Made by a program: the position numbers and the translations under genes. Shown here piece after piece: positions 7,552 through 31,297 of a stretch of 64,000 bases of DNA (position 1 is its first letter; each line of letters opens with the position of its first letter). The stretch spans positions 1 through 64,000 of the forward strand of contig VFJK01000166.1 in the NCBI GenBank assembly GCA_009886125.1. Reading direction: 5' to 3'. This stretch comes from Geobacter sp. (GTDB lineage: Bacteria; Desulfobacterota; Desulfuromonadia; Geobacterales; DSM-12255). Under the pieces are notes generated by a model, which was not told the DNA's origin, did not search any database, and saw nothing but the letters and a program-made list of their open reading frames with translations.

Positions 7552-7648
7552 TAGTGTAACTCCGCTCTCAATCGCTGCAGACGTCGCTGCCATAAACCGA
7601 TACTGCCGGTCTTCCTGAGCGGATAGCCAAACCTGCCGGTAATGATCT

Positions 7649-8755: not shown

Positions 8756-8757
8756 CC

Positions 8758-10395
8758 CTACGGCACCGTAAAATTTATGCTGCTGGTGATGGCGAGATTC
8801 TCCTTGGTCCGGTCCGTCACCCTGACCGGTTGCAGCGGCAGGGAGAGTTCTTCTGCATGGAAATTCCCGGCGCTGGCCACATGGCGCAGCGAGTACGGCG
8901 GTGCGGGAACCGGCTCGAAAGAGTCGAGACCACGACCGCTGAAGTTGTCGCTGCAGCTGAGACCGTCAGCCGTTATCGTCACCTTGCGGCAATAGGTGAT
9001 CCCGGAGCTTTCTGCCCGGAAGATCATTTTCTCTTTCAGCCGGGAAATCAGCCGTCTGCCGAACAGGTAGCTCAGGACCCGCAGGGCGATATGCCGCAGC
9101 GGGGTCGATTCCGGCCAGCCATGAACCGTGACGACGCCACGTGATTCAATTGTGACAGCAGTGGTTTCCTGACCGAAGGCGGCACTGCTTTCCGGGTGCT
9201 GCCAGTGTGTCAGGGCGACCCGGCCGTCACGGCACCGGTAACGCCAGCCAAAATCTGCACAGACCAGCCCTCCGCTGCCGTAAATGTAGTATACGCCCCC
9301 TTTTCTGGCGGCCGTAAAGATCGACCTGATGCCGGGAGTATGCTGAACATGGACACCTGACTCGCAGAGATATTTCTGCACTCCGGCTTCACAGGGAAGC
9401 CTCTCTGAACGGGTAGTCATCCGGGAAAGCTGCTCGATGCCCCGGAAACAGGATTGATAGATATAGTGGCACAGGTAGCGGTCATCAGTGGCATTAAGGA
9501 AATGAGCCGGTTTTTCCAGATCACCGAACAGCACGGCAACAACCCGTGCAGCAAGGGGGTTACTCTCTGCCATCCTGATCAGGCCATAGGGGGCGATGTA
9601 GTCGGTATTCCGGGAGTTTGTCATCACCGGCGTCGTACCGGACACAGCAACCATCAGACTGATGTACTCCAGCGCTCTCTCCATGGCAGCGGCAGCACGG
9701 GGATCACCCGTCAGGTCATGATAAACAGCCAGAGCATCCAGCGTGACCGACAGGTAACCGGTGTCGGCACCGCCATACTCGGGAAACCACCCTTCCGATG
9801 ACTGGGCATGAAAGAAGGCGTCTAATCGGGCTTCCAACAGCAGCGGATCAACCTGTATGGACGGAATGCGCGTCGCAAGGGACAGGGCTGCCAGCGCCAC
9901 TGACTGCTGATTGAGCGCCTGACTCTCCCGGGTTGCCAGGAGCCAGTCAACCGCCTTCTGGATGGCTTTTGCGAGAGGCGGCTGCGGTTGCGAAAAGCCT
10001 CTTTTCTGCAGAATGAGTGTCACTGAAAAGAGCGAGAAGGCGGTCGGCGGGAACCCTTCCTCCCAGGGATAGTATTCGTTGAACGCACCGCCGGGGAGCT
10101 GCTGCGCAGCCCAGAACGCAAGAGTCGCATCGACCCAGAGGACAACCTTTTGTTCACGGTAGAGGAAATTATCCGGATGAGGATAGCGGTAGAGCGTCTC
10201 CAGGATCAGCGCCCCCTGCTGCAACACCATGGAAGCAAAATCACGCATCCGGTAGTGCCAGAAATCACGATCGAAACAGCCGTAGGTCGGCGAGTCCGGA
10301 TCCCGGTCGAGCTGGGTCAGGATGCGCGGCACGCTCCGCAGCAGGAACTGTTCGAAACCGGCGCGGAATTCATTTGGATTCTGAGCACTATTCAT
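8758..10395 (-). CDS. Alpha/alpha-toroid plus beta-domain protein, possible polysaccharide lyase (heparinase-like)
   Basis: 545 residues from the ATG at 10395, which overlaps the nitroreductase stop by eight bases (GATGAATAG) and has an AGAAGAG ribosome binding site. A further nine in-frame codons upstream (to 10422) are less likely to be used. There is no signal peptide. Residues 60-310 are helix-rich with repeated aromatic and glycine turns (for example GGAFNEYYPWEEGFPPTAFS and GWFPEYGGADTGYLS), as in alpha/alpha toroids of polysaccharide lyases. Residues 350-540 are rich in short beta strands, as in the C-terminal half of heparinase II/III proteins. The catalytic residues cannot be assigned. 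Such proteins often accompany exopolysaccharide operons in this group. Function is inferred only. Confidence 0.5.
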   Translation of the reverse strand: MNSAQNPNEFRAGFEQFLLRSVPRILTQLDRDPDSPTYGCFDRDFWHYRMRDFASMVLQQGALILETLYRYPHPDNFLYREQKVVLWVDATLAFWAAQQLPGGAFNEYYPWEEGFPPTAFSLFSVTLILQKRGFSQPQPPLAKAIQKAVDWLLATRESQALNQQSVALAALSLATRIPSIQVDPLLLEARLDAFFHAQSSEGWFPEYGGADTGYLSVTLDALAVYHDLTGDPRAAAAMERALEYISLMVAVSGTTPVMTNSRNTDYIAPYGLIRMAESNPLAARVVAVLFGDLEKPAHFLNATDDRYLCHYIYQSCFRGIEQLSRMTTRSERLPCEAGVQKYLCESGVHVQHTPGIRSIFTAARKGGVYYIYGSGGLVCADFGWRYRCRDGRVALTHWQHPESSAAFGQETTAVTIESRGVVTVHGWPESTPLRHIALRVLSYLFGRRLISRLKEKMIFRAESSGITYCRKVTITADGLSCSDNFSGRGLDSFEPVPAPPYSLRHVASAGNFHAEELSLPLQPVRVTDRTKENLAITSSINFTVP

Positions 10396-11029
10396 CAAAT
10401 CTCTTCTCGAAACGCCCGGCAAACCCTCTCAGAACAGATCTAAACGGGAGTGCGTAATAAATCCTCCGGCAGAGCCGGCGTAATCCTGAAGTTGCAGAAG
10501 AGAGGCCTGCTCCTTCCTCGAATGCCCATCGGTCAAGGGCAAGCAGCTTTGCCTCCGGGTTGTCTGGACGCACGGAGCAGACTCCGTCCCGGTAATACCC
10601 GAAACTGAGAGCAGCCACCGGTTCATACGCTGCCGGGATGGCAAAACGGGCAGCGACTTCCCGCTTCGGCGGCAGATGACAAAGCCAGCAGCTGCCGATG
10701 CCGCGATCATGGGCAACCAGCTGGAAGTAGGCGATAAATGCAGCTGCGCTCTGGATGGAATCCTGCCATTCACGGTTCTCCGTGCCGCTTTCATAGCAGA
10801 CAAGCAGAACCTGGGCAGCGGTGCGAAACACCTCCGAGCCGCCGCAGCGGTAGAGCCAGTCAAGGTCTACAGGATCCTGGATCAGGATAGAGCGCCAGCC
10901 GCGCCGGTTGCAGGCGGACGGGGCATGGGCGGAGAGATTGACAATCTCGGACACAATATTAAAGGGAACACGTTCTTCAGTATAAGCTCGGGCAGATCGT
11001 CGTCCCCTTATGGCATCAGCCAGTTTCAC
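10388..11029 (-). CDS. Nitroreductase-family FMN oxidoreductase
   Basis: 213 residues. The start LADAIRGRRSARAYTEE and the segment APSACNRRGWR are the FMN phosphate-contacting N-terminal motifs of the nitroreductase family, and GIGSCWLCHLPP with AALSFGYYRD are the conserved later motifs. Enzymes of this family are NAD(P)H-dependent flavin reductases or dehydrogenases with many substrates. The gene lies three bases after the GT2 gene and overlaps the toroid gene, so it is expressed with the polysaccharide operon; its substrate there is unknown. The C-terminal 45 residues are basic and not conserved in the family as far as I can tell. Confidence 0.85.
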   Translation of the reverse strand: MKLADAIRGRRSARAYTEERVPFNIVSEIVNLSAHAPSACNRRGWRSILIQDPVDLDWLYRCGGSEVFRTAAQVLLVCYESGTENREWQDSIQSAAAFIAYFQLVAHDRGIGSCWLCHLPPKREVAARFAIPAAYEPVAALSFGYYRDGVCSVRPDNPEAKLLALDRWAFEEGAGLSSATSGLRRLCRRIYYALPFRSVLRGFAGRFEKRFDE

Positions 11030-11032
11030 ATA

Positions 11033-11803
11033 TCACCTCTTGAATACATGGTAAAGCAATATGAATGCAGCTGCCAGAGGAGATGCGAGCAACAGAAAAA
11101 AACGGGCTTTATTATAACGAAACAGAGAGTGAAGAATAATCCCTGCAGATTTAACAACGTAGCTGTACGGAGAAGTCATAAGTCTGGATGGTCTCAATCT
11201 GCCTGGATTAATACGAATCGGCACGGTTGCTACATCAATATCTGAGTTGCCGGCCTGAATTATTGTCTCAAGGGTATAGGTATAATCATTAAAAACGACG
11301 AGTTTCTCGGCAACATCCCGTGAGAAGGCCCGGAATCCGCTCGGAGGATCACTGACGGTTGTCTTGCTGGCATACATTACGACTTTGCTTCCAATCCAGT
11401 GAAGTGCCTTCAATATAAAAGGTACCCAGTCTGCCTGATAGACAGGTCTAAGGCCGACAACAAAGCCCGAACGCCCGGAAAGAACGGGCTCTAACAGTTT
11501 TATGATGTCTGCAGCACAGTATTGATTGTCGGCATCGGTATTGACAACAACATCCGCTCCGTTTTGCAAACAAGCTGATATTCCCGCCATAAATGCAGCC
11601 GACAAACCTCTGTTTTCGTTAAATCTTACAAGGTGATCGACTCCAAGCTCAAGAGCAACAGCCGCAGTTCTGTCATTGCTGCCATCATCTATTACGAGCC
11701 ATTCCACTGAATCAAAGCCGACAACAGTGCGGGGAAGTTCCGCAAGAGTAAAAGGAAGTGATAACTCTTCATTGTAACAGGGTATCTGGATTATCATTTT
11801 CAT
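11033..11803 (-). CDS. GT2 glycosyltransferase (dolichyl-phosphate mannose synthase-like)
   Basis: 256 residues from the ATG at 11803. The open frame can be extended four codons to a TTG, but MKMIIQIPCYNEE is the usual start of this family. The GT-A motifs are present: PCYNEE, VIDDGSNDRT and the DXD-type VNTDADNQY. A hydrophobic pair near the C-terminus (residues 215-250) anchors it to the inner membrane. It probably makes polyprenyl-phosphate hexose as donor for the GT-C enzymes at the end of the operon. It is the first gene of the operon, with a promoter at 11843-11871. Confidence 0.85.
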   Translation of the reverse strand: MKMIIQIPCYNEELSLPFTLAELPRTVVGFDSVEWLVIDDGSNDRTAAVALELGVDHLVRFNENRGLSAAFMAGISACLQNGADVVVNTDADNQYCAADIIKLLEPVLSGRSGFVVGLRPVYQADWVPFILKALHWIGSKVVMYASKTTVSDPPSGFRAFSRDVAEKLVVFNDYTYTLETIIQAGNSDIDVATVPIRINPGRLRPSRLMTSPYSYVVKSAGIILHSLFRYNKARFFLLLASPLAAAFILLYHVFKR

Positions 11804-11842
11804 ATTTGATTTCAAGACCTTGAATAGCTTTTATTGAGACAA

Positions 11843-11871: not shown

Positions 11872-11889
11872 TCTAAAAAGGACAAAAAA

Positions 11890-11913
11890 ATGGGGTCGTA
11901 AGAACGACCCCAT
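11890..11913. terminator. Bidirectional rho-independent terminator
   Basis: A perfect nine-base stem (ATGGGGTCG / CGACCCCAT) with a six-base loop, flanked by seven A residues on one side and a T run on the other, so it can work on both strands. On the minus strand it ends the cytochrome-peptide unit. Confidence 0.9.
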
Positions 11914-11937
11914 TTTTCTGTGTATGATCCGGCTGTT

Positions 11938-12079: not shown

Positions 12080-15000
12080 TTACCAGCGGGTCTTTTTGTT
12101 CCACATCTGGTTAGACGGAGTCCAGGTCGAGCCGCCGGCGTTGGTGGCGTTGTGGCAGTTGGAGCCGTAGTTGGCAATAGAGTTTGCAACGTATGATCCA
12201 GGTTGCGCTGTCACGAAGTACCATGGGCCGGGGCCTTGAGCTGTAGCAGGTGTTCCGTTGTATCTGGAACCACCGGCAGGGAAACGACCGGCGCCTTTGG
12301 CGGTTGATGCATAACTCTGGAGCACGTTACCAAAGTTGGCTGCTGCCGTACCGGCTGTAGCATTGATACTGCCGCCCGACACAGCCTGTCTGACATGCCG
12401 TACATCAAGGCAGTTGGTGATCAACAGCCTTGGCAGACGGGATACGTGCGGTGCGTGGCACTTGGCACAGGTGAAGGCATGAACGGTACCGTTGGCATTG
12501 GTTCCGGCCGTTGCTGCCCAGCCACCAACAGACTGGTGAACACGGTTTGTGCTCCGCCAGTCAGCAGCTGTAGGAGCTGTTGTGATAGCGCCGGCATTGC
12601 CTGTCAGTGACAGTTTAGTATGGCAGCCGATGCAGAGGCCGGCGAAGTTGGCCGGGGTATTGTCGCCCTGGTTGTGGAGAGTAAGGGCGTTTCCGGCCGC
12701 ACCCGGGAAGGCAGTGAAATACTGCTTGCGAATGTTGTTTTTAACCATAGTAACTCCTGCGCCGCCAGCTGTAACCGCAGGATTATTCACCAGCGAATTC
12801 TGGTCGATGTTGTAACCAGGCATTGCGCCGAGACCGTTCATGCCGGCGTAGTTGCAGCCGCCGCCACGCTTGACAACCGGTGTTGCCCTGTCTTCGCGGT
12901 ACGGCGAGGTGACCCAGGTACCCTTGAGGAGCGGTACGGACTTACCACGGTTGACGACCGTCATACCGCTGGAGACACCGTGCGGATCGTGACATGGGGT
13001 ACAGAGACCGTTAATATCGTAGGCATGACTGGACTGGCCGCCACGAGCTGCGTCGACGCTCTGGCCGAAGTGACCGCCGCGCGGCAGGCGGAGGTTCTTC
13101 ATGCCGCTTGCGCCGCCGCCTTTGTAAGCGGTACGCTTGGTGGAAGCCATGGTGTAGTTGTCGAAGTATGGCGTACTCCAGTAGCCGGTGAGGGTGCCTC
13201 TGGTGGAGCTGTAGGTCCGCATCAGGCCCCATGGCTTGTTGGCGGAGGTCGGAACTGCCGGAGCTTTGCTGTAAGCATTGTTGTCGTTGTGGCAGTCGTT
13301 ACAGATGCTGGCGCCGGTATTGAAGAGGGCCGAGGTTGTGGTGAAGGCACTGTAATTGTTGTATGAGATCGTGCGTGCAGCCGGTGTATAGGTGGCGGTG
13401 TAGCCGCTCTGGCCGGCAATGGTCGTCTTCAGCAGGCCGCCTTTATAGCGACCGGTGGCGCTGGAGTAGGAGGAGGTGATGCCGGTGGCGTTGGAGCCGT
13501 GGGAGTTGTGGCAGTCGTAGCAGAAGACGTTTCTGTTGCCGCTGGCACCAGCATAGGTGTAGTCGGTCATGGTGGCGTCTTCACCGGTGCCGTTGGCAGT
13601 CGCATCCCAGGCCGGCATGTCGTTCAGGTCGGCCCTACCGTGAGCAGAGAGCGCCTTGATGGTGGTACTCTTCCGGTTGCTACCGTAATCGGTAACATTA
13701 CCATCCTGCATGGTGTTGTTGTACAAGCTCCAGGCAACGGTTCTGCTGCTGGAGTAACGGGAAAGAATACTTGATTTACCCAGAGCCGGGACCATATTCG
13801 GCTCAGGGGCGTAGAAGTCGGAGGCGTAGGTGCCGAACATGTTGGCCGCCGGGATGCTCATTGAGTTGTGGCAACCGGTGCAGACGGCGTTCAGCTTTTT
13901 GATCTGCTGCCGGGTACCATTGGCGGTGTAGGAGATCAGTGTTGCCGTGGTGACGGTTGTCGGCCGGGTAGTAGCGCCGTTCCAGTTCACGAGGCTCACG
14001 CCCTTGCCGGCTGCCTGGCTGTGGTAAGCGGCATTGATGTCACCGGTGATTGTAGCTTCCCAGTGACACTTGTAACAAGATGCCTTGGTAAGAACTTCAT
14101 TACCTTGAATATGATGAGACTGTGAGGCGAACTGGCCGACGACCGCTTTCCTGACGCCGCCCTTGACGGTACTGTGACAGCTGAGGCAGTCGCCGCCCTC
14201 GATTTTGCCGTTCATGTGCAGCGATTTGTCGGCGAAAATGGCACCGAAGGTTGTGGCGGAAGTACTGAGACTGTGGCAGTTACTGCCGCACTGGCTGTTG
14301 AGCGGGAAGCCGGTGACGGTTGCCAGACCGACGTGGTCGCCACTCCCCGGTGTCGGCGGGAAGGCATGGCATTTCTGGCAGTCAGCTACAGTAACAGTAC
14401 TGCCGCTGTTGGTGCCGGAGAGGTAAGCGGCGTTGTTCCAGACCGGTGCAGCAGCGCCGGTGCCGGTCTTGCCGGCGTGACAAGCGGTATTGTTACAGGT
14501 GATGAGGCCGCCTGCGCGTGAGACCCATGGAGTATAAGTTGCCCAATCAGTTATTTTTGCGTGACCACCAAAGGTTACCCGGGCAGTCGTATAATTGAGG
14601 TGATTCACGTCGGAGACCGCGTTGACCATGACGTGGCAGTCACTGCAGCGGACCTTGTCTGCTATGCCCATGGTCGCATTCATATGCTCCTGGTGCAAAC
14701 CACCGCGATTGGTAACGCCGGTAGCGCGGTTGGTATCAAAGTTGCCGGTACCCGGGGCGATCGTTGCCGAGGTGACATTGGTAAAGGTGCCGGATTGTGA
14801 ACCGTGGCAGTAGTAGCATTTGCCGCCATTTGGCATTACCTGGCCCCAGACCGGCGATTTCTGACCGTGGCACTGGGAGGTGGAACAGGTCATGGTACCG
14901 ACAGTATACGCTGCGGCCGTGCCGGCCTTGGCTGTGTTGAATCCGACATTAACAGTTGCCCTCGTCTTGGCTGCTTTACCGGAATAGTTGCCATGAGCAG

Positions 15001-17548
15001 CTTTTCCTGAACCGCCATTTAGATGACAGTCATTGCAGGCATAGCTGTATGGCGCCGAGACGTGAGCAGTATGACTGCCGCTCCAGTTCGGGAAGGCATT
15101 GGCAGCACCGTTTGGTACACCGGTTGCGTTAAGACCGTGACAGTCTCCGCAGCCGGGTGTATTGGTGAAGTTCGTCTGATTGGTATGACAGAGCTGACAA
15201 TTGATGTTGGCAGCAACACCACGGGTCACCGGATATGTTCCGCCACCAGTTAAAGAGTGACAAGGGGTACAGTTGGAGTAGCCATTCGGGTTTGCCAGGA
15301 TAAAGGTACCAAGACCGCCATTTTTGTGCCTGATACCGCCGAAACTCCACTCATGGCCATTGGCAGCATTTACCACGCCATTGATATGCATGTCACGGTT
15401 GATGATCTTGCCGGTTGCATCAACAACTGAACCATGACAAGCGGAACAAGTAACAGTCGGTTTACCGACAGCGGTATAGTTTTTATGGGTAGCCTGAGAA
15501 GAACCGGTACGCGGCGGGTTACCGTGACAACGGCTACAGGCCACGAGCGGATTGGTGTAGTTGATCATTGCCGAGTAGTTCCAGTAAGGAACTTGATAGG
15601 TACCGGAGGTGTCAGCTGTCTTCAGCCTGCTGCCGTGGCAGTAGGTAGTAACGCAGCTTGCCCTGTAGGTAGAAGTTCCTGAACTATAACGGACCAGTGC
15701 AGCATTACGGGCCGGAGTACCGGAGGCAACACCGATAGTGATACTTGCTGTTGAAGACTGTAAAAAGGTGAGTGTCTGCGAGTTGAAACGGGTGGATGCA
15801 GCATGGGAACCGTCAAAAACAGTCAAAGGCACGCGGTGACACTCGTTGCACTTGATTGCTTTCATGTAGACTGACGAAAGGTGCTTGAAGTGTGAGCCGA
15901 CGCGGATATTGTTGGAGCTGGTGAGCTGGTCAGTACTGGTACCGATAGTGGCGGCGACTTTATAGCCGGGAGCAAAGAAGCGGCGATTGTCGCCGGCGTT
16001 GGCAAGTCCTGCTGAAGTGCCGGCAACACCGTGACAGTGGGAGCAGGTGTTATCGGTATTGACACCAGCGGCGTTACTCCAGACGCCCCTGGATTTACCA
16101 CCGTGACATGCTGTGTTGGTGCACTTGAGGGCGTCAACACCGGTTTTCTTGTAGGATGTGTAGGAGGCATAGGCTATATCGTTAAAGATGACGTTCTTGC
16201 TGCCATCGCCGTGATAGATGGCACCGCTGTAGTCCTTGAGGGCGGTATGATCCTTGGCGATCTTGCCGTGACAGTTATTGCAGTTGATGTTGGCAAGTGG
16301 ATATTTCCCCAGATGCTGCTGATGAGTGGTCGAAAGGCTGAAATTGGTAGTAGTAGTCTTTGCATAGCCACCACCAGCATTGCGCCCACCGTGACAGGAG
16401 AGGCAGGTGGAGGTGCCGGTCCAGACCGGTGACGGACTGTACTGCGTTATGACGGTACCCCTGCCGGTACTGTGGCAGGTGGACTTGGTGCAGGTCAGGG
16501 TATAGTTGGGACTATTGGTAGCGGCAATGTTCGTTGTCCCGCCATAGGTGTTGCGCGGCACTTTGCTGCCGGAGATATTCTTGAAGCCGGTTGAGTGCTT
16601 GACAGTAGCGGCGTTGTAATGACAGACGGTACAGGCATAGCCGTACTGCCCCTCATCTTTTCCTGAGTGTTTACTATGGGCACCCTGGAACAGGCCCGGA
16701 GGATTATTGCGGGCAGTCACATAGGTGCCGTCCTGAGGCGGGTTGCCGTGGCAGTCACCGCAGGTGGTAATAGTTGAATAGTTTGTTCCTGTATTGGTCA
16801 CCGGTGCCAGGCCGACACCGGCAATGGCGCCTGCTGCAGCAACACCGACAGTTGTAGTCGGGTTCGATGTTGTGGTGCCGGTGGTAACTATTGAATAACC
16901 GGATGCCAGGTTAAAATTCGTGCCGGCATAATCCCTGATTTCTGTATGAGTCGGGGTACCGCCAGCGGTTGATGCCTGGCCGTTCCAGTTCGCCACATAG
17001 ACACTCATACCCATGTTGGCGGCCGAACCGGTCACACTGTACGCCCCGGTGGCAAGTGCGGTGTTACTGGCGGTCGCAGCGGCGAGACCGGTCGGAGCAA
17101 CCTGGCTGGCGCCGCTGTAGACCGCTGCGGTTACGTACATGGCTGTCAGGTTGGCAGTCACCGAATTGGTGACCGAGAGAATCTTGGTGCCGGCCGAGCC
17201 TGTGGCGACCCCGGTCTCCAGCAGGTAACCGAGCCAGATCTTGCTGTTCTGGGCAGTGTTGGTTACCAGCTGCGTCACCGTCTGTCCGCCGTAAGTGACC
17301 GTAAAGCCGGGAGCACCTGCAGCTGAGTACTCGGTCGCCACCGCTACCAGCATCACACGGTTACTGCCCGCTCCCGGGGTGTAGATCCCGGTGATCGTTG
17401 GAGCAGCACTGTTGCTGACGATTGTCGGTTTTGCCGGCCATTGATTGACAACATCGACCGATGCTGCCGCCTCCTGTGGACTGATCAGACCAGTCAGCGC
17501 ACAGACGGTAGCCGCCACAACAAGAAGGAGAGCGCCCTTTAGTTTCAT
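12080..17548 (-). CDS. Giant multiheme c-type cytochrome, about 29 heme-type motifs
   Basis: 1822 residues from the ATG at 17548, which has an AGGAG site seven bases upstream and begins a clear signal peptide (MKLKGALLLVVAATVCALTG). The longer frame start at 17611 adds 21 hydrophilic residues. By eye I count 23 CxxCH, 5 CxxxxCH and 1 CxxxCH motifs, the mix described for the Geobacter GSu_C4xC__C2xCH family. Residues 30-230 are a heme-free beta domain with a TYGGQTVTQLV motif also found in the neighbouring cytochrome. The C-terminus has the sequence PRLLITNCLDVRH and a lone NCH. It should be exported, haem-loaded in the periplasm and probably sited at or beyond the outer membrane for electron transfer. 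It lies 63 bases after the larger cytochrome. Confidence 0.9.
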   Translation of the reverse strand: MKLKGALLLVVAATVCALTGLISPQEAAASVDVVNQWPAKPTIVSNSAAPTITGIYTPGAGSNRVMLVAVATEYSAAGAPGFTVTYGGQTVTQLVTNTAQNSKIWLGYLLETGVATGSAGTKILSVTNSVTANLTAMYVTAAVYSGASQVAPTGLAAATASNTALATGAYSVTGSAANMGMSVYVANWNGQASTAGGTPTHTEIRDYAGTNFNLASGYSIVTTGTTTSNPTTTVGVAAAGAIAGVGLAPVTNTGTNYSTITTCGDCHGNPPQDGTYVTARNNPPGLFQGAHSKHSGKDEGQYGYACTVCHYNAATVKHSTGFKNISGSKVPRNTYGGTTNIAATNSPNYTLTCTKSTCHSTGRGTVITQYSPSPVWTGTSTCLSCHGGRNAGGGYAKTTTTNFSLSTTHQQHLGKYPLANINCNNCHGKIAKDHTALKDYSGAIYHGDGSKNVIFNDIAYASYTSYKKTGVDALKCTNTACHGGKSRGVWSNAAGVNTDNTCSHCHGVAGTSAGLANAGDNRRFFAPGYKVAATIGTSTDQLTSSNNIRVGSHFKHLSSVYMKAIKCNECHRVPLTVFDGSHAASTRFNSQTLTFLQSSTASITIGVASGTPARNAALVRYSSGTSTYRASCVTTYCHGSRLKTADTSGTYQVPYWNYSAMINYTNPLVACSRCHGNPPRTGSSQATHKNYTAVGKPTVTCSACHGSVVDATGKIINRDMHINGVVNAANGHEWSFGGIRHKNGGLGTFILANPNGYSNCTPCHSLTGGGTYPVTRGVAANINCQLCHTNQTNFTNTPGCGDCHGLNATGVPNGAANAFPNWSGSHTAHVSAPYSYACNDCHLNGGSGKAAHGNYSGKAAKTRATVNVGFNTAKAGTAAAYTVGTMTCSTSQCHGQKSPVWGQVMPNGGKCYYCHGSQSGTFTNVTSATIAPGTGNFDTNRATGVTNRGGLHQEHMNATMGIADKVRCSDCHVMVNAVSDVNHLNYTTARVTFGGHAKITDWATYTPWVSRAGGLITCNNTACHAGKTGTGAAAPVWNNAAYLSGTNSGSTVTVADCQKCHAFPPTPGSGDHVGLATVTGFPLNSQCGSNCHSLSTSATTFGAIFADKSLHMNGKIEGGDCLSCHSTVKGGVRKAVVGQFASQSHHIQGNEVLTKASCYKCHWEATITGDINAAYHSQAAGKGVSLVNWNGATTRPTTVTTATLISYTANGTRQQIKKLNAVCTGCHNSMSIPAANMFGTYASDFYAPEPNMVPALGKSSILSRYSSSRTVAWSLYNNTMQDGNVTDYGSNRKSTTIKALSAHGRADLNDMPAWDATANGTGEDATMTDYTYAGASGNRNVFCYDCHNSHGSNATGITSSYSSATGRYKGGLLKTTIAGQSGYTATYTPAARTISYNNYSAFTTTSALFNTGASICNDCHNDNNAYSKAPAVPTSANKPWGLMRTYSSTRGTLTGYWSTPYFDNYTMASTKRTAYKGGGASGMKNLRLPRGGHFGQSVDAARGGQSSHAYDINGLCTPCHDPHGVSSGMTVVNRGKSVPLLKGTWVTSPYREDRATPVVKRGGGCNYAGMNGLGAMPGYNIDQNSLVNNPAVTAGGAGVTMVKNNIRKQYFTAFPGAAGNALTLHNQGDNTPANFAGLCIGCHTKLSLTGNAGAITTAPTAADWRSTNRVHQSVGGWAATAGTNANGTVHAFTCAKCHAPHVSRLPRLLITNCLDVRHVRQAVSGGSINATAGTAAANFGNVLQSYASTAKGAGRFPAGGSRYNGTPATAQGPGPWYFVTAQPGSYVANSIANYGSNCHNATNAGGSTWTPSNQMWNKKTRW

Positions 17549-17611
17549 TTTGAATCTCCTGTCAATATATTCAGTCATATAATTACTTATCATCATTGCT
17601 CTCCCCCTCAC

Positions 17612-20600
17612 TTAGTAGGTTGACCAGATCGGCGAGGTTCTGTAGTGGCAGTCTATATTCGAACAGGTCTTCGGTTTCGCAGCTGAAGAGCTCAAACTCG
17701 AACCGTTGTAGAAAGCGGCTGAACCGAACGAACCAGTTCCAGGGAAGGTAATCTGTCTCCTGTTCGGATTCTTGCTTGTTGAGTGGGCTCCTGCCTCGCT
17801 GGTCGAGTGACAGGCACCGCAGATCTTGATGAAGTGGCTGTTTGCCCAGTTGTCAGTAGATGGATTCAAGCTACTGAAGGTCGGGTATCTGGCCTGGAGG
17901 TACTGAATATGCTTGACGTGGGCGCCATAGCCTTCGGTGTTGGCGCCGGCCATGGAGAGGATGCCCCAGGTATTGCCGTTTCTTACATTATAATCGTGGC
18001 AACTGTCGCACTTCAGGTTGTAGTTGATGACACCGTTGACATGGAGATTCTTGTCAGTGAAGGCATTGGACATGTTGGTTGCCGAGCTGCTGATATTGAA
18101 ATGGCAGGACTGACAGTTGGCGACGATGGTCGACAGTGCCGCCCCGTCAGCCAATGCCACGTGACCGGAGATTGAGCCCGGCAGAGGCGCCATGGCATGA
18201 CACTTGTTACAGGCGCCGACCGTTGAGGCATTCTCTTTCACCAGGCCGGTCATATTCCAGAACGGTGCCATGAGGGTACCGGTATTGTTCTTGCCGGTAT
18301 GGCAGTAGGTGTTGGTGCACTGCATGATGCCGTTGGTCCTGGAGACATACGGATTGTCGATGCCGTTCTTTGCCCGGCCGTTGAAGGTCAGGGTGGCGGT
18401 TGACATGTTCCAGTGACTGCCGTTACGGACATTGGTTACCGGGATATGGCACTCACCGCACTTGATCGCATTGGAGAGCATATCGGTCTGCAGGTGACGC
18501 TGGTGAGCGCCGACGCGTGGCAACGTGGCCGCGTTGTTGACCATGGTTGTGTCGGTTCCGGCCGTGCCGTATCCCGGGGCGATGGTCGCCGACGAGTAGT
18601 TAGTCAGGTAATCTGCTGCCGTGGCATCACCATGACACTTGGTACAGGTCTTTTGTCCGGCGAGGAGGGAACCGGTTTTCTTGGCTCCCCAGACCGGTGC
18701 GCCGGCACCATGACAGATAATGTTACTGCAGGTGACCTGGAAGCCGGCAGTCGCAACCGCAGCTTTACTGCCGATATTTGGCAGGGCAGTATTGAAGACC
18801 ACGTTCGGACCACCACTGAGGTGGGTGGTGGAATACGGTCTGAAGCGGTTCGGTACGGATGTCTCGGCAGTCTTGCGGTGGCAGTCGGCGCAGGAAGTGG
18901 TCGAGGAGAGGCCGACCATGTGACCTTCGTGGAGGTTGGAGGTCGCGGTGTTGCCTCCGCCGTTGGCGTAACTTGGATAGCCGGTTGCATTACTGCGGCC
19001 GTGGCAGTTATTGCAGGTAGTGATTGCTGCAGATGTTGTTCTCCATTCCTTGAAGCCGGTCATGTTGACAAAAACGACGGCATTCGGATTACCGTTGCTG
19101 TGGCAGTAGACGTTGGAACAGATCTTGGTGATGCCGTTATGGTTCTTGCCTGACTTGGCGCCTGAGTAGTTGAGCGTTGCGTTGACGTGACGCCCTTTGT
19201 TGGCGATGGTATAGTTACTGAACGTCGTGATGGTCGGTGCGTGACAGTCGCGGCACTTGAAGCCGTTGCCGACGCCGATTATCGGGTTGTTGGTCGGGTT
19301 CATATGCTTGTCGTGCTTGCCGGACAACTGGCTGACCGTGCTATTGGTGTACTGCATGTCATGGCACAGTTTGCAGTTGGCGGTGGGCTGCTTGCCAGTA
19401 GTCCAGGTAAGGCTGGCGCTGAACGGCGCACCGCCGCGGCCGTTGGAATGACAGTAGCTGGCGTTGCAGACGCCGGAGGTGTAGTTGAAACCGTTATCAG
19501 TGGAACCCGATGGCGCACCGTAGCTGTAAGTGCCGCGACGGCTGCTGGTTGCCGGTGTGGCGGTGGAGATGCCGAAGAAAACGCGGGCGGCGGCATTGGC
19601 ATTGGCCGGTTTGAGGCTGTGCTTGGCAACCTGGTCGTCATGGCAGTGGGCACAGTTGAAGCGGTACTTGGTCGGGGAACTGAGGTCCTGGACCGTCTGG
19701 GTGTAACTGGTCGGCATGGTCGAGTAGTTGTAGTGGATCTTGTGGTTGCCGGACCAGCTGACATCGTCTACCTTGGCGCTGTGGCAGCCATTGCAGTTAA
19801 GAGAAGCGCCACCCCAGACCGGAGAATCGGCAGTGCCGTGACAGAAGGTGGCAGAGCAGGAGCCGAATGCCTGAGTCTGGGCAATCTTCTGCGTGCCGGT
19901 CAGGTACGGTGTGCCGACTGAGTAGGCCCCACCGATATAGCTGGTGAAATTAAGGAAAATACTGCGGTCGGCATGCATCGCATTGAAACTCGCCCCTGCA
20001 TCCTGGTGGCAGTATCCGCATGGCACGTCCATGCCGGTAGTTTTGTTGGCATGTTTCTCGTGGCTGCCGGTGGAAGCTGCGCCGGTAGCAGTTGAGAAGT
20101 CGTTATGGCAGGTGCCGCAGGTCATGGGAGCTGCACCCCAGCGAGGCTGGATGTAGGTCGGTAAGCCGGTGCCGTCACCACTCTGGACCGTACTGTGGCA
20201 GTAGACGTTGTTGCAGGTCCGGTAGTCATCGCCGGCGGTCACATTACCGCGCGGCGCCATTCCCGGCAGTGAACCGGAGGAAACGTTGTTATAGGTTGCA
20301 TTCGGCCCAAAGACCAGATTTGCCCGGTCAAGCCGCCAGGTGAGGACCGCATTGACATGTGTGCCGTTATCAGTTGTATCACCATGACAGGATGAGCAGG
20401 TAAGCGAAGCAACGGTCAGGGCATGGCGCGTATGCGAACCGGTAGTCGGTGCATTGGCCGAGTCGACACCATGGCAGTCACCGCACTGGATCGACAGTGC
20501 GTCAGCCCAGCTCGGATTGAGAACATTGCCGCCTCCGAGAACCGGACGGACCGGCGAGGCGAGAGAACCGCCGCCATGGCAGTAGAGGTTGGAGCAGCGG

Positions 20601-23600
20601 GCTTCATGAACATTGGATTTAACGAGGGTCGTGGTACCGGTCGTTTTCCAATTGGGGCCATTAACACTGTTGGTGTAACCGGTGAAGGTACCGCTCCCGC
20701 CGAGACCGAACTGGTTGAAGCCGATCTCCAGCTGGTAGCCTTCTGCCAGCATTGACGTACTCGAACCATTGTGACAGGTATTGCACTGATTACCGATTGA
20801 TGGAACGAGCTGATGGGCATTATGCGACCCGGCAAAACCGGGCGGCATTGCATTCTGTGCCGGCAGGGTAAGACCATCCGGCGGGCCAAGCACGGCGTTG
20901 ATCGGCGGATTGCCGTGACAACCGTCGCAACCGCCTTCTACAATGCCGTTGACGTGCAGACTCTTTTCCTTGAAACCGTAGCCGTCTGCCGAGACATGCT
21001 GGTGGCAGTTGGCGCACGTATTAAGGGTCTTGCCGAAATGGACATATGATGAATTTGGCGCCGGCGGTGGCAGTGCATGACACTTGGTACAGTCAGCGGC
21101 ACCGTTGCCGGTAAGGAACGCAACGTTCCATTTGGGGACACTGTGCGCGGGCGGTGTTGTCCCGGCATACTCGTCCTGGCCGCGGTTGGAGTGCATACCG
21201 GCACCGTGGCAGTAGATATTATTACAGCTCTGGGTGGCAAATGAGTAGGTGGGTGTTGAATAGTAGCCGAACAGTTTACCATGACCGGCAATAGAGCTGT
21301 TATTGTTGAACGGCACCTCAGCCGGGAGGGCGTTGTCAATGTGACCGGCGGTGAATGGGCCGCTTGGGTTGCTGTGGCACTGCTTGCAACTCATGCCGAC
21401 AGCAAACGAAGTGAAGCGGGCAAAGGTTGCCTTGCGTGGCGAGTTCAGGTTCTGGAGATGGATATCATGAACACCGATGCCGGTAGAGTAGATGCTGAGA
21501 GTTCCTGTCGGGCCGCGGGTGTTGTAGAAACCGCGCGGTGAAGTAGCTGAGCCGTGGCATTTTTCGCACATCGGCAGGGCCGACGCAGCAGTGCCCCAGG
21601 CTCGGGTATAACGGCCATGACAGTCGCTGGTAGAACAGGTACCGAAGGCGGTACCCGGAGTTATGGAAGTGCCGCGAGAATAGACAGTGTTCATACCGAG
21701 ACCGTCAAATTGCATGTTAATGATGCTGTTGGCGTGATTAAGCGGCGAAGTCGTACCGCCGTTATCATGGCAGACATGGCAGTCAAAATTAACCTGGGCA
21801 TTCTGGTGGCTCACGTGAGAACCGGACTGTTGTGGCGCAACACATAACGGATCCTGCGGACTGCACCCATGACATGAACCGCAATCAGCCGGTCCGCCCC
21901 ATAAGGCAGTAGCATATTGTGTCGGCCCACCGGTGCCGTTGCCGGTCGCACCTTGTACATTACTATGGCAATAAAGATTGGTACAAGAACTGTAACTTCC
22001 GGTTGGCGTTGGCGCCGGCTGGCCGGTAGTGGCAAGAAGGCCGGAGTTGATACCATTGTAAGTCGCGCCGGGATAGGGTGCCATCCCCCATTCGACCTTG
22101 CCGTTGATGTGGGCGCTGCCGGTATAGTTGGCATAGGTGGAGTGGCAGTTGCCGCAGGCGATGCCGAGACCGGCTCCGGTAGTTGCGGCATGCTTGGCAT
22201 GGCTACCAGAGGTTGGCGGGATCGCGCCGGTGGCATTATGGCAGGTACCACAGGCGGCCTGTCCTGCTCCAACCCAGTTCGGCACGGTGTTGCTGCCTTG
22301 ATTTCCACCAGCCTTCCAGGAACCACCGCCATGGCAGTACGTGCTGCAGGAGTTATTATAGTCGGCGATTGTCGTAATATTGGTAAATGCGCCGGCTACC
22401 CAGCTAAACGGCTGATTGAGGTTGTTGGTGCCGTAGAATTTACCGCCCTGGACGGCAACTGCCGGGTTCCACCCGGAGAAGGTATCCTTGGAGGCATTGA
22501 AGCCGATTTCGAGGATGCCGTCGCCCTGCCATGCTGTCGTGGCAAGCCCGTGATTGGTACTGCTATGGCAGGCCCCGCAGGTAATAGCCTTTCCGTTGTG
22601 ACGGGCATGAGCGCCGTAGTTGGGTGGATTCGGCCCGAGGGCATTGGTCAGGTCCTTGACCATGGTTGCCTTGTTGATCGGGGAATACCCGGTGGCCTTG
22701 AAGCCGTGACAATCGCCGCACAGACCGTAGATCGACTTGAAGGCGGAATTGTGGGTATGACAGCGGATGCAGTCACGACTGTTGTGATGATCTGAATTAT
22801 AGGCTTCATCGTTGCCAGGGCCGCCAAATGGCTTGCTGGCGCTGTACTGATGCTGACGTGTCTGGTGGTGGCAAATGTTGCAGACCTGATTGGAGCCGTT
22901 TTTATTCGAGCGAAGGTCATTACTGAGAACACCATTCGAATCAGCCGAAGTGGAGGATGTCTTGGTAAAGACAACATTTCTTTTGCCGATCGGTGTGGAG
23001 ATAATCTGATAGACACCCTTTATATTGGTAGTGCTGTTGGAATGACAGGTAGCGCAGGTGTAGGTCTGCCCCCATGAACCGTACTGGTACTTGGCCATAT
23101 TGGCACTGTTATGAACGATCGGCGGCATATCATTAAGCAGTCCGGTCACCTGCGGTGTCGTAAGAGTATACGGCAAGCCGTTATTGTGATTACCATTGGT
23201 CAGCTTGACGGCAAACTTGTAGGTTTCCAATTGCTGAACGCCGGCTGCTTCAATACCGGTAATGAGGATATTAACCGTTTTACCGGTGCTGGCGCCACTG
23301 CCACCGGTACCGACAGTTACAGAACTCGGGAACGGACCACCAGCAATGGTTTTGGTAAAGTGACTGTCATTACCGACAACAAGATCGAGTTCAACGTTAA
23401 AAACTGCATCCGGACAGGTGCCGATATCATTATTAGAAACCTGCAGCTTGAATGGAGCACTGACGCTCGACTTGATGATCTGCAACCCTGCTGTCGTGCC
23501 GCCGTCTTCATAGGCAAGAGTGACTGAAGGCGGCCGATTGCAGATATTCTGCACCTTGGCATTGGCAGAGGCCTGGGCACCGTCGCTGATGTTGCCGAGG

Positions 23601-26600
23601 GAATCCTTGGCGCAGACGCGGTATTTATAATTAGTCGGGTTGTCGCTGGTAAGGCCGTTGTCGGTAACCGTGCGACCGGCATAATTAATGGTGACAGTGC
23701 CCACGCCGGCGAGGTCGATCGAGCCGTCGGTCAGGCCGAGACAGCCGGGGTCAGGCGAGACCCCGCCGCCGAGGCTGCGGCGGATGATAACCGGTGTCGT
23801 CGGATGCATGGTGCCGCCGTTGGCAGGGGTGTCATCAACCGGATCCCAGCCAAGATTGATCTCGCCGGGGTTGACACCGGTTGCCGCCGAGGCTGTGGCC
23901 GGTCCGTTCGGCTTTTCTACATCTATGGAAAGATTTGCGCTGGTCGTATCGTTATTGATAAGCTGATTGGTTCCCACCGAATGGATGAGGTTGGTGACTT
24001 TGCCGTTTATCGGGCCGTAATAACCGGACAGGGTACCAGAGGGGTCAGAAGCAGAAGGGGTGATCACATCAGCAGTTCTGATCCGCACATAATAGGTTGT
24101 AGGAGTGGCATTTGCAACAAGTCCAGTTACCGGGATATTCCAGACATCACCGACGGCGGGGAGGTTCATGGAGCCGTAGACTACCGTACCGGCCTGATTG
24201 GTTATCTCCACCAGCTTTATCTTGGTGATTGTACCGCCGCTGCCGCCGGAGATAAAGGGCGGTGTCATGGTAACCGTAATACTGGAGATGGTATCGTCGT
24301 CAATAGCATTGACACTGTTATGATTGAGGGTAAAGGCATTGAGATTGGTAGGGGCACTCGACTTCCAGAGCCGCACTGCTGAGGGTTCGACACCGTTGCC
24401 GACCGTCAGCGACGGCAGCAGGGTCAGCGTGGCGGCAGTCGCGTCATTAAGGGTGCCGGCTGCCGGGGTAGTGCCGGTTACTCTGGCGGTGAAGGTTACG
24501 CTCGTACCATTGGCGATCGCCCCTGGCGCAACGTCAACGACGACGAGGTAATTCTGTTGTCCAGAGATGGTTTCAGTGCCGGTGAGCGCTATATTGACCG
24601 GTGTCGTGCCGACAGCGCCAAAATTGCCGGAACCGATCAACTCATCGACCACCGGTGTATAGAAGACAAGATTGGCGTCTCCCTTGCGGTAGATCCTGAT
24701 GGCACTGATATTCGAACTGGTCGTGTTGGCATTACCGGTTACCTGAATACTGGTGACCGTGCCGCTGCCGTCCATGGTGAAGGCATCGACTACCGCGCTT
24801 TGGCCGGCATAGATAACGCTGTTGCTGGGTGTACCACCATCCGTAAGGGTAACAGCCCGCGGTGGCAAGGCCATGGCGGACATGGCGTAGCGCCCGCTGA
24901 GCGAGCGGATGCCGGTCATGGCACTGTCGGTGATCGCAGTACCCGGGATTGCCCTTTGCGCCAACTCGTGGGCATAGGCGGCCGTGGCGGTGAGTGTTCC
25001 GGTGAACCTGGAGGGAGCAACATCGCTGTACGGGGTTGTCCAGTTGGTATCGGGCGACCAGGTCGGGATGCCGTTGGTAGTGATATTGACATCATTGATA
25101 ACATAGATGCCCAGACTGTTAGCCGCTATCGGCAGAACCGGGGAAAGCAACATGTTTGTCGTGCTGGTCGTATTATAGAGGCGGCTGTAACTGACAACCG
25201 GTGCGAGCTGATCGACATTAGCGAACACCGCATAATAGACATCAAGCTTGGTAGAGGCAATGCCGGCCGCCCAGCTGAGAGCAAACGGCTTGCTCGTGCC
25301 GTCCATAATGACGTCGTTGTCTTTCATATAATAGAGCCAGGTATGCGCTACCGCCGATGTTTGCCGGTTGCTGGACGCCAGGGTCAGCGGCGTACCGCCG
25401 TAGGTTATGGTAGACGGTATTGCCGGCGCGACATTGGTTGCCGGTGTATTGTAATGGGTAATGGCGACCACCAGCATGCGGCCGGTCCCTGCCGGCGCCG
25501 TTACCGCAAAGTTTGCGGTGAGGTCGGCTGCTGCACCGGTCGCCCTGGTAGTCGTGTCGTTGATGATCCTGGTCCAGCTCTGCGCCGCCTCGACCAGGCC
25601 GCCGGCACGGGTTCTGATATTGGTGAACGTCTGTACCGCGGTACCGGTTACCCCGTCCGGGTCCTGGTAGGTAACCTGGATATCGTAGAGGGTATCCTGT
25701 GCCAAGCCGGTGATAACGGTTGAGTACGGGCTGCCTGCATGGGTCATGTTCTGCCAGAGCGTGTAGCCTCCGGCACCGGAGAGCTTGTACTCAACCCGGA
25801 AGGTATTGTCGGCATCGGCATCGTCATAGTAGGGGCCTTCAACGAGAATACGGTCCTTGCCGGAGGCAATGGCCGACGCCGTTCCTGTGGCAGTTGTGTT
25901 GATAACACTGAACGGAGCTATGGTTGCTGTGGCAAAAGCATAGCGGACCGAGGTCCAGACAGGGATCGGATCTACGGTGCCGGTCGACGCAAGCGGCTTG
26001 GACCCCATCGTATTCTTGTAGAGCGCCCCGTTGGCGGTGTCAAAGTGTTCGGTATAGCCGGAAGGAGTGCTGACATCACCAGCCGTAGTAGCATTGGTAT
26101 TGACGCCATAGATGGCATAGCCGCCACTGATGCCGTTGATGGGTGAAGATGGAGGATTGGTCGCAGCTGCGGCGTTGATTACCCACGATGCGGTGATCGG
26201 CGTCGTCTGGTTGACGCCGCTGTAGAATGCTGCGGCCAGGCTGCTGCCGCTCTGCGGGGCCGTGCCGGTCCAGCTGACGGTGATGGATGGGGGCGCTCCG
26301 GTGGCGGCGGCAATACCGGCGTCATTGAGACGACCGAGCCAGATGTGTTGGCGCTGGCTGACCGACGACTTGACGATCTGGGTCAGGGTCTGCCCGCCGT
26401 AGGTGACCGTCGGCGTTGCGCCGGTACTGTTACCGCTGTAATCCATGGCGATCTGGACGACCAGCAGTCGCTCCGTACCCGTCCCCTTGGCCAGGGTCAT
26501 GGCCGGGAAGGTATTGGTCGTAGTGGTACCGATAATTGCCCACTGCGTCTCGTTGACGACCGCAGCCTCGGAATGACGAGGAGCGAGTAAATACGCAAAG

Positions 26601-26686
26601 GAGGCAAGGAATACCAACAATAACAGCATCCCCCTTTTTGCCTGTGGATTTATCTCTCGGATTTTATTCACGAGTAATTTTCCCAT
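17612..26686 (-). CDS. Giant multiheme c-type cytochrome, about 43 heme-type motifs
   Basis: 3024 residues from the ATG at 26686, eight bases after GGAGG; a TTG two codons upstream is possible. The signal peptide has a long basic start, a hydrophobic core (GMLLLLVFLASFAYLL) and SEA-A cleavage. Residues about 45-1210 contain no haem motif: two beta domains with TYGG motifs near residues 97 and 428, then fibronectin-III-like and other beta domains. From about residue 1212 onward I count 31 CxxCH, 11 CxxxxCH and 1 CxxxCH motifs. They occur in repeated units of a CxxxxCH haem, a W, a CxxCH haem, a GSHxxH histidine pair and another CxxCH haem. This is probably an extracellular or outer-surface electron carrier. 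No porin-cytochrome partner is visible in the window. Confidence 0.92.
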   Translation of the reverse strand: MGKLLVNKIREINPQAKRGMLLLLVFLASFAYLLAPRHSEAAVVNETQWAIIGTTTTNTFPAMTLAKGTGTERLLVVQIAMDYSGNSTGATPTVTYGGQTLTQIVKSSVSQRQHIWLGRLNDAGIAAATGAPPSITVSWTGTAPQSGSSLAAAFYSGVNQTTPITASWVINAAAATNPPSSPINGISGGYAIYGVNTNATTAGDVSTPSGYTEHFDTANGALYKNTMGSKPLASTGTVDPIPVWTSVRYAFATATIAPFSVINTTATGTASAIASGKDRILVEGPYYDDADADNTFRVEYKLSGAGGYTLWQNMTHAGSPYSTVITGLAQDTLYDIQVTYQDPDGVTGTAVQTFTNIRTRAGGLVEAAQSWTRIINDTTTRATGAAADLTANFAVTAPAGTGRMLVVAITHYNTPATNVAPAIPSTITYGGTPLTLASSNRQTSAVAHTWLYYMKDNDVIMDGTSKPFALSWAAGIASTKLDVYYAVFANVDQLAPVVSYSRLYNTTSTTNMLLSPVLPIAANSLGIYVINDVNITTNGIPTWSPDTNWTTPYSDVAPSRFTGTLTATAAYAHELAQRAIPGTAITDSAMTGIRSLSGRYAMSAMALPPRAVTLTDGGTPSNSVIYAGQSAVVDAFTMDGSGTVTSIQVTGNANTTSSNISAIRIYRKGDANLVFYTPVVDELIGSGNFGAVGTTPVNIALTGTETISGQQNYLVVVDVAPGAIANGTSVTFTARVTGTTPAAGTLNDATAATLTLLPSLTVGNGVEPSAVRLWKSSAPTNLNAFTLNHNSVNAIDDDTISSITVTMTPPFISGGSGGTITKIKLVEITNQAGTVVYGSMNLPAVGDVWNIPVTGLVANATPTTYYVRIRTADVITPSASDPSGTLSGYYGPINGKVTNLIHSVGTNQLINNDTTSANLSIDVEKPNGPATASAATGVNPGEINLGWDPVDDTPANGGTMHPTTPVIIRRSLGGGVSPDPGCLGLTDGSIDLAGVGTVTINYAGRTVTDNGLTSDNPTNYKYRVCAKDSLGNISDGAQASANAKVQNICNRPPSVTLAYEDGGTTAGLQIIKSSVSAPFKLQVSNNDIGTCPDAVFNVELDLVVGNDSHFTKTIAGGPFPSSVTVGTGGSGASTGKTVNILITGIEAAGVQQLETYKFAVKLTNGNHNNGLPYTLTTPQVTGLLNDMPPIVHNSANMAKYQYGSWGQTYTCATCHSNSTTNIKGVYQIISTPIGKRNVVFTKTSSTSADSNGVLSNDLRSNKNGSNQVCNICHHQTRQHQYSASKPFGGPGNDEAYNSDHHNSRDCIRCHTHNSAFKSIYGLCGDCHGFKATGYSPINKATMVKDLTNALGPNPPNYGAHARHNGKAITCGACHSSTNHGLATTAWQGDGILEIGFNASKDTFSGWNPAVAVQGGKFYGTNNLNQPFSWVAGAFTNITTIADYNNSCSTYCHGGGSWKAGGNQGSNTVPNWVGAGQAACGTCHNATGAIPPTSGSHAKHAATTGAGLGIACGNCHSTYANYTGSAHINGKVEWGMAPYPGATYNGINSGLLATTGQPAPTPTGSYSSCTNLYCHSNVQGATGNGTGGPTQYATALWGGPADCGSCHGCSPQDPLCVAPQQSGSHVSHQNAQVNFDCHVCHDNGGTTSPLNHANSIINMQFDGLGMNTVYSRGTSITPGTAFGTCSTSDCHGRYTRAWGTAASALPMCEKCHGSATSPRGFYNTRGPTGTLSIYSTGIGVHDIHLQNLNSPRKATFARFTSFAVGMSCKQCHSNPSGPFTAGHIDNALPAEVPFNNNSSIAGHGKLFGYYSTPTYSFATQSCNNIYCHGAGMHSNRGQDEYAGTTPPAHSVPKWNVAFLTGNGAADCTKCHALPPPAPNSSYVHFGKTLNTCANCHQHVSADGYGFKEKSLHVNGIVEGGCDGCHGNPPINAVLGPPDGLTLPAQNAMPPGFAGSHNAHQLVPSIGNQCNTCHNGSSTSMLAEGYQLEIGFNQFGLGGSGTFTGYTNSVNGPNWKTTGTTTLVKSNVHEARCSNLYCHGGGSLASPVRPVLGGGNVLNPSWADALSIQCGDCHGVDSANAPTTGSHTRHALTVASLTCSSCHGDTTDNGTHVNAVLTWRLDRANLVFGPNATYNNVSSGSLPGMAPRGNVTAGDDYRTCNNVYCHSTVQSGDGTGLPTYIQPRWGAAPMTCGTCHNDFSTATGAASTGSHEKHANKTTGMDVPCGYCHQDAGASFNAMHADRSIFLNFTSYIGGAYSVGTPYLTGTQKIAQTQAFGSCSATFCHGTADSPVWGGASLNCNGCHSAKVDDVSWSGNHKIHYNYSTMPTSYTQTVQDLSSPTKYRFNCAHCHDDQVAKHSLKPANANAAARVFFGISTATPATSSRRGTYSYGAPSGSTDNGFNYTSGVCNASYCHSNGRGGAPFSASLTWTTGKQPTANCKLCHDMQYTNSTVSQLSGKHDKHMNPTNNPIIGVGNGFKCRDCHAPTITTFSNYTIANKGRHVNATLNYSGAKSGKNHNGITKICSNVYCHSNGNPNAVVFVNMTGFKEWRTTSAAITTCNNCHGRSNATGYPSYANGGGNTATSNLHEGHMVGLSSTTSCADCHRKTAETSVPNRFRPYSTTHLSGGPNVVFNTALPNIGSKAAVATAGFQVTCSNIICHGAGAPVWGAKKTGSLLAGQKTCTKCHGDATAADYLTNYSSATIAPGYGTAGTDTTMVNNAATLPRVGAHQRHLQTDMLSNAIKCGECHIPVTNVRNGSHWNMSTATLTFNGRAKNGIDNPYVSRTNGIMQCTNTYCHTGKNNTGTLMAPFWNMTGLVKENASTVGACNKCHAMAPLPGSISGHVALADGAALSTIVANCQSCHFNISSSATNMSNAFTDKNLHVNGVINYNLKCDSCHDYNVRNGNTWGILSMAGANTEGYGAHVKHIQYLQARYPTFSSLNPSTDNWANSHFIKICGACHSTSEAGAHSTSKNPNRRQITFPGTGSFGSAAFYNGSSLSSSAAKPKTCSNIDCHYRTSPIWSTY

Positions 26687-26958: not shown

Positions 26959-27268
26959 TTGCATCAATTCTTACCGGCAGAAAATGATTAGTCGTAATTA
27001 ATGTCTTGCAACAAGGCTAAAGTTTATCAAAAAAAAATGGCAGCAGCCGAATGCTTCCGCCCTCTCCAATCGCCTCAGGCAGAAAGCAGCGATTTCAGGA
27101 GTTGGTTTGCCGGCAGTTTCGCCGAATTCAGCTGTAGTAGCCGTTATTTCACTGCCGACGTTCCGATAAAGACGCCTGAATTCAATTTCGGAATAATACA
27201 ACATATTTACTTCACGTGCAATACTCCCTTCATCTCTTTTCCTGTCAGATTACAACATGCAAAATATT

Positions 27269-27303
27269 AAGGCCGGAGCTTCACATTGAGAAGCTCCGGC
27301 CTT
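27269..27303. terminator. Rho-independent terminator after amtB
   Basis: Perfect 14-base stem (AAGGCCGGAGCTTC and its complement) with a seven-base loop, followed on the minus strand by AATATTTT, 31 bases beyond the amtB stop. Confidence 0.85.
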
Positions 27304-27334
27304 ATCGGGTCACGCACCTGTTTTGTCGGGAAAA

Positions 27335-30904: not shown

Positions 30905-31005
30905 GATTTCGCCCCCTTAGAAGAGATTCAACGGTAAAGTTTTCTCTTTCTACCAAGGTAAGAGCATCAAACGAGCCAAAACTACAGATATCCCGCCGAA
31001 ACCGT

Positions 31006-31035
31006 TTGACATTTAACAACTTCTCTTGATATATT
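31006..31035 (+). promoter_or_regulatory. Sigma-70 promoter of the cold-shock gene
   Basis: TTGACA (31006-31011), 18-base spacer, TATATT (31030-31035). It leaves a leader of about 55 bases before the start codon. Confidence 0.75.
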
Positions 31036-31096
31036 CCACATGCCGTGGATTATCCCGGACATATCAAAACAAGTAACATCAGGAGAAGGTAAGTAA

Positions 31097-31297
31097 ATGG
31101 CCAACGGAACAGTAAAATGGTTTAACGACAGCAAGGGTTTTGGTTTTCTCGAGCAGGAGAGCGGCGATGACGTATTCGTTCACTTTTCCGCAATCGCTGG
31201 TGACGGTTTCAAGTCTCTCGCAGAAGGCGACAGAGTAACGTTCGACCTCGTGAAGGGGCCAAAAGGTCTTCAGGCTGCCAACGTAACCAGAATCTGA
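31097..31297 (+). CDS. Cold-shock domain protein (CspA family)
   Basis: 66 residues, the full length of a single cold-shock domain. The RNP1 motif KGFGFLE and RNP2 motif VFVHFSAI are both present. Such proteins bind single-stranded RNA and DNA and melt RNA structure. It has its own promoter, an AGGAGAAGG site and a strong terminator, so it is a single-gene unit. Confidence 0.95.

Follow-up and report, generated by a model that had tools for sequence, protein, structure and literature searches.

The cytochrome gene pair and its surroundings

The window analysed here comprises the first 64,000 nucleotides of contig VFJK01000166.1 (C20), from the Geobacter sp. assembly GCA_009886125.1, in which a 16S gene was not found. 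Two consecutive genes are encoded on its minus strand, A upstream and B downstream (Table 1), and their lengths of 3,024 and 1,822 residues and joint extent (12080-26686) hold as originally predicted. The two genes are in frame with each other across the interval 17549-17614, where the TAA at the end of A is the only stop before the start of B; losing this codon would be enough to turn them into one gene. As terminator-like hairpins flank the pair and none lies between A and B, the two genes likely form one transcription unit. No known riboswitch or other RNA was found in the leader of A. Both frames are under constraint, with about twice as many differences at third as at second codon positions in comparison with three homologues.

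In the ORFs closest to the pair on either side, Pfam scans revealed no porin, pilus or secretion gene (four ORFs matched no family), and none of the nearest flanking ORFs is named as an outer-membrane porin of the porin-cytochrome conduit type. The region downstream of B (window positions 160-11815) carries radical SAM, methyltransferase, asparagine-synthase-like amidotransferase, nitroreductase-like and glycosyltransferase genes with unknown ones interspersed, perhaps a polysaccharide or natural-product cluster. Elsewhere in the window (30930-31351), an Rfam match to the cspA thermoregulator (84.5 bits, gathering threshold 78) covers a 66-aa cold-shock-like ORF at 31097-31297.

Table 1. Positions of the cytochrome genes, their parts and the flanking signals in the window
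Feature	Position	Strand	Remarks
Gene A, giant c-type cytochrome, 3,024 aa	17612..26686	minus	43 haem-type motifs; TIGR01904 and Pfam matches
Gene B, giant c-type cytochrome, 1,822 aa	12080..17548	minus	29 haem-type motifs; TIGR01904 match
A/B gap, 63 bases	17549..17611	minus	AGGAG site before the ATG of B; without terminator-like site
Terminator-like hairpin, 15-pair stem	27268..27304	minus	after amtB, upstream of A
Terminator-like hairpin, 18-pair stem	11882..11921	minus	downstream of B
A residues 1-42, signal-peptide-like	26561..26686	minus	basic start, hydrophobic run, SEA-A; inferred by reading the sequence
A residues 43-1200, motif-free N-terminal part	23087..26560	minus	AlphaFold2, Foldseek, alignment blocks
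A core, residues 1211-2350	19637..23056	minus	28 motif sites: 21 CxxCH, 1 CX3CH, 6 CX4CH
A tail array, residues 2351-3024 and stop	17612..19636	minus	15 motifs, kept in close homologues only
B part fused to A in L040, about residue 960 to end (968-1822)	12083..14647	minus	alignment

Motif content and family membership

A program count yielded 43 motifs for A (31 CxxCH, 1 CxxxCH, 11 CxxxxCH) and 29 for B (23 CxxCH, 1 CxxxCH, 5 CxxxxCH). The total of 72 motifs (54 CxxCH, 2 CxxxCH, 16 CxxxxCH) is identical to the manual count made earlier, including its 16 CxxxxCH and two CxxxCH sites. Shuffling the residues 200 times per protein left on average 0.3 motifs for A and 0.27 for B, with a maximum of 2 and 3, respectively. 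The expectation that the pair ranks among the longest cytochrome frames of Geobacter is not supported, as a genome of the same family contains a frame of 4,360 aa with 86 motifs.

Protein A matches TIGR01904 with 245.1 bits in 11 stretches and B with 49.3 bits in 4 stretches, both above the curated cut-off of 27 bits. Among Pfam families, PF14522 (Cytochrome_C7) exceeds its cut-off in both proteins and GSu_C4xC__C2xCH in A, which also matches the MtrC/MtrF II-IV domain. The assignment of A and B to the giant c-type cytochromes of a Geobacter-like organism, a known kind (TIGR01904), is supported by their sequences. A first contig scan of the genome with B as query returned no match.

Single-protein searches with E up to 1 found no solved structure close to A or B. 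The profile of the A core gave weak matches to solved chains (best E 0.01) of the c7, NrfA, NrfB and GSU1996 types; the GSU1996-type chain 3ov0 matched this profile with E 0.29 and neither single protein up to E 1. The solved filament cytochromes OmcS, OmcE and OmcZ were absent from the matches up to E 1 of the single proteins and of the core profile.

A predicted three-haem repeat module

Writing out the motifs plus all other histidines revealed a module of about 125 residues, HxxH - CxxCH - H - CX4CH - CxxCH, which is regular in both proteins and includes 12 HxxH pairs in A and five in B. The non-canonical motifs occupy the module slot, i.e. the second motif position after HxxH, in 17 of 18 cases (A 12/12, B 5/6). 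Across 181 frames with at least 10 motifs each, composed of the window pair and the fetched loci with near-identical frames kept in, this slot is held by 959 of 1,174 non-canonical motifs versus 76 of 3,854 CxxCH motifs. Exactly two CxxCH and one CX3-4CH are found in 556 of the 719 distinct stretches between successive HxxH pairs, and 94% of the stretches with this composition have at least three other histidines.

A split module, in which A ends in a half module that B completes, was considered and rejected: several other partner genes likewise start with HxxH without a leading CxxCH, so the gene ends look like plain unit borders.

Conservation of the core

For the conservation analysis, residues 43-3024 of A served as query against 13 family genomes and 117 genomes of the order. 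The 16 matches with at least 1,400 aligned residues were aligned with A (17 sequences), leaving out shorter ones. All 28 motif sites between residues 1211 and 2345 are retained in all 17 sequences, including the CX3CH at 1447, and CX4CH is exchanged for CX3CH at positions 2031 (2/16), 2158 (4/16) and 2277 (2/16). Five unfused close homologues (55-62% identical) retain all 43 sites of A; the 15 tail sites are mostly lost in distant homologues.

The histidines outside the motifs are similarly stable. In the core, 25 of 36 are invariant in the 17 sequences and three more are present in 12-16 of them, at an overall proportion of 144 invariant among 1,066 non-motif positions. The conserved histidines of the core amount to approximately one distal histidine per motif (28), while the CxxCH motifs alone would need 21. 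An AlphaFold2 model of the 28-motif core, built from the 17 sequences, failed (mean pLDDT 31.8).

Cultured relatives with a member of the A family are Geotalea sp. SG265 (L064) and Pelotalea chapellei (L069). An A-family frame of 3,763 aa with 68 motifs (L045:4725-16016) has the 28-site core too, followed by a longer array.

Probable haem at the non-canonical motifs

Conservation and a regression of histidine numbers, weighed together, lead us to regard the CX3CH and CX4CH sites of A and B as very probably haem-binding; the prediction is based on the retention of the core sites and of the further histidines, and on the 43 of 43 sites kept in close homologues. The regression, over 145 frames, assigned 0.19 extra histidines to a non-canonical motif (interval -0.005 to 0.37) versus 0.77 to a CxxCH, and thus speaks against a simple one-to-one histidine rule. 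It would agree with haem at the 54 CxxCH sites only, the CX3CH and CX4CH motifs being structural, a reading also compatible with data that consist of sequence. We nevertheless hold this alternative to be quite improbable, as all 17 sequences keep both cysteines and the histidine at each of the seven non-canonical core sites, CX4CH and CX3CH replace each other at three of these seven, and the 25 to 28 conserved distal histidines exceed the need of the 21 core CxxCH sites. There are, furthermore, precedents for haem at such motifs: in MmcA of Methanosarcina acetivorans, CXXXCH and CXXXXCH peptides carry the mass of haem in mass spectrometry (PMC11024163), and cytochrome c3 has two CXXXXCH sites (PMC10454114). 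The earlier statement that sequence does not tell whether CxxxxCH and CxxxCH sites bind haem remains fair for A and B, less so for the motif types as such in view of these two proteins.

If haem is bound at these sites, CX4CH holds a constant haem position in a unit that recurs hundreds of times in relatives of Geobacter, and roughly one haem in four (here 18 of 72 sites) escapes a count limited to CxxCH.

N-terminal parts and predicted location

Read by eye, the N-termini of A and B are hydrophobic and resemble signal peptides. The AlphaFold2 model of the N-terminal part of A has a mean pLDDT of 57.4 and is confident only from about residue 613 to 1190, where it is all-beta. Foldseek matched it to many chains of tandem beta-sandwiches, e.g. 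of fimbrial and fibronectin types; TM-scores by query length were at most 0.15 among the 50 matches listed, and we therefore derive no more than the fold class from them. The first 400 residues of A vary between close homologues. The modelled fold suggests that this haem-free part may serve as a surface stalk or attachment part, and A and B may be exported to the surface, although the nearest ORFs scanned include no porin, pilus or secretion gene.

Two other arrangements were weighed against these features. A and B might be periplasmic capacitors, as proposed for GSU1996, and have no role as an outward wire. This is unlikely: they do share the modular triheme build of GSU1996 (PMC10138318), and signal-peptide-like N-termini alone indicate only export across the inner membrane, but the beta-sandwich region of A is long and variable and resembles a surface part, and for Geobacter proteins with 30-53 motifs the available text of a bioanode study gives predictions of extracellular (31%) or unknown (69%) location and none of periplasmic (PMC7399161). 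Alternatively, A and B could be the repeating subunits of filaments like those of OmcS, OmcE or OmcZ. The subunits of these filaments are not known to carry a large beta stalk such as that predicted for A, which counts against such an assembly. Cytochrome filaments do exist in Geobacter (PMC9473688), but neither single sequence matched a solved filament cytochrome and the core profile matched other cytochromes only weakly (best E 0.01), so that we consider filament formation highly improbable.

Fusion, synteny and related arrays

The syntenic locus of an uncultured Geobacter sp. MAG (L040) contains one fused A-B frame of 3,223 aa with 48 motifs, in which residues 350-2916 of A (59% identical) are followed by the C-terminal part of B. 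Upstream, amtB (87-88% identical), glnB (90-92%) and an ANTAR regulator (64-72%) are common to the window, L040/L146 and L044/L139; downstream, a glycosyltransferase (64%) is common to the window and L040. The MAG contains a further copy of the fused tail, and the two are 88% and not 100% identical, so the fusion, found in one MAG, is not simply that copy mis-joined. At other loci, A is followed by one to three further cytochromes, with 43+13+26 motifs in C109 of the window's genome (L039), and 43+13+19+28 in L042.

Fusion and gene layout together point to A and B as neighbours in one electron path, and we infer that the two proteins are in contact. The original suggestion that the pair may form one long electron path thereby gains support from the syntenic fusion and the two-gene arrangement.

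In genome G001, contig C134 (L149/L150 and L057:5833-18915) carries three tandem giant cytochrome frames of 3,816, 3,864 and 4,360 aa with 63, 62 and 86 haem-type motifs, i.e. 211 in about 37 kb.

A proposed wire

The reading we favour, and think reasonably probable, sees A and B as the products of one two-gene unit, polymeric c-type cytochromes that are exported and jointly form one long haem chain. Near-perfect conservation of the unit suggests that all 72 predicted sites, the unusual ones included, may carry electrons along one protein wire, and the strict constancy of the site number is more in line with a wire of defined length than with a loose store. Each module would carry three haems, including that of the CX4CH site, and each haem would be bound by the histidine of its motif and a second one, supplied by the HxxH pair plus one further histidine. 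System II synthases would attach the haem in the periplasm. The mature proteins would reside at the outer surface, A being held by its beta-sandwich stalk, and electrons would travel along A and B by hopping between successive haems in the direction of an external acceptor. If this holds, a single unit, about 125 residues long and with its ligands predicted, could be produced by itself to build wires of chosen length.

Divergent ResB and CcsA genes

Matches of the ResB/CcsA type (PF05140, PF01578) are present in the window's genome, the ResB-like ones on contigs C18, C123, C109 and C120 and the CcsA-like ones on C118, C18, C109, C123 and C151; C20, the contig of the window, has neither. Beyond the giant cytochrome array of C109 there are a ResB-like gene, at a distance of 3 kb, and a CcsA-like gene, at about 8 kb; the ResB-like match of C120 is 4.7 kb away from the cytochrome. 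The positions L138:2540-3661 and G000:C109:46332-46934 mark the ResB-like and CcsA-like genes that adjoin the paralogous giant array in the window's genome.

Among the matches listed for the 13 family genomes, ResB places were divided at a score of 240 bits: of the 43 below it, 16 have a match to a giant or TIGR01904 cytochrome no more than 8 kb away (1.8 expected), and of the 15 high-scoring ones none has. The 8 kb radius and the 240-bit border were chosen after the pattern was seen, so the P value of this comparison is indicative at most. Paired_CXXCH cytochromes, in turn, adjoin 10 of the 15 high-scoring versus 1 of the 43 divergent ResB places among the matches listed. A conserved set of four genes, encoding a beta-helix/NosD-like protein, two small proteins and a ResB-like protein, follows cytochromes in three genomes (L056:8911-13603, L055:13536-18277, L136:4982-9719).

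Dedicated System II synthases for odd motifs are described from Wolinella, NrfI for CXXCK and CcsA1 for CX15CH (PMC12285233). The divergent synthases beside the paralogous arrays (C109 and C120 in the window's genome) might act in trans on A and B. Taken as a whole, a genetically fixed-length wire of 72 haems, with a CX4CH haem in each module and maturation in trans by divergent ResB/CcsA-type synthases, is a tentative and somewhat doubtful proposal. As the window pair is without a ResB or CcsA gene nearby, a dedicated synthase for A and B themselves is only a guess. The link to divergent ResB genes makes the question of which synthase matures CX4CH directly testable.

Comparison with known multihaem cytochromes

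GSU1996 is a polymer of four triheme domains and GSU2210 contains 27 haems (PMC10138318). By the module pattern and the Cytochrome_C7 matches, and in the sense of a provisional likeness, the GSU1996-type polymers resemble A and B in their tandem three-haem domains within one chain (PMC10138318), but GSU1996 has 12 haems, compared with up to 43 motifs and one CX4CH per unit here. The giant Geobacter cytochromes of TIGR01904 and PF09698 (GSu_C4xC__C2xCH) share the CxxxxCH...CxxCH repeats and the lineage of A and B; the model, however, covers two of the three motifs of the module, and its name and description are without the HxxH pair, the first CxxCH and the 28-site core.

The 113-haem MHC/S-layer protein of Ca. 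Methanoperedens manganireducens, named as the record in 2020, is likewise a giant multihaem protein of an organism with extracellular electron transfer (PMC7082337). Compared by description, it is archaeal, larger and equipped with S-layer domains, unlike A and B, which are no size record beside its 113 haems (PMC7082337).

Geobacter proteins with 30-53 motifs and two to four residues between the cysteines have already been published from bioanode genomes (PMC7399161). These agree with A and B in size class, motif variants and genus; the module, its ligands, the fusion and the link to synthases are not described in the available text of that study (PMC7399161). No description of the full HxxH module or of the conserved core was found in the open-licence literature, which was covered mostly at the level of listings and provides weak evidence of absence. 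The newer points are the full module, the frozen 28-site core, the A-B fusion and the divergent ResB genes beside such cytochromes. Proteins of this kind are known already, and the analysis gives a sharper and partly new picture of their anatomy.
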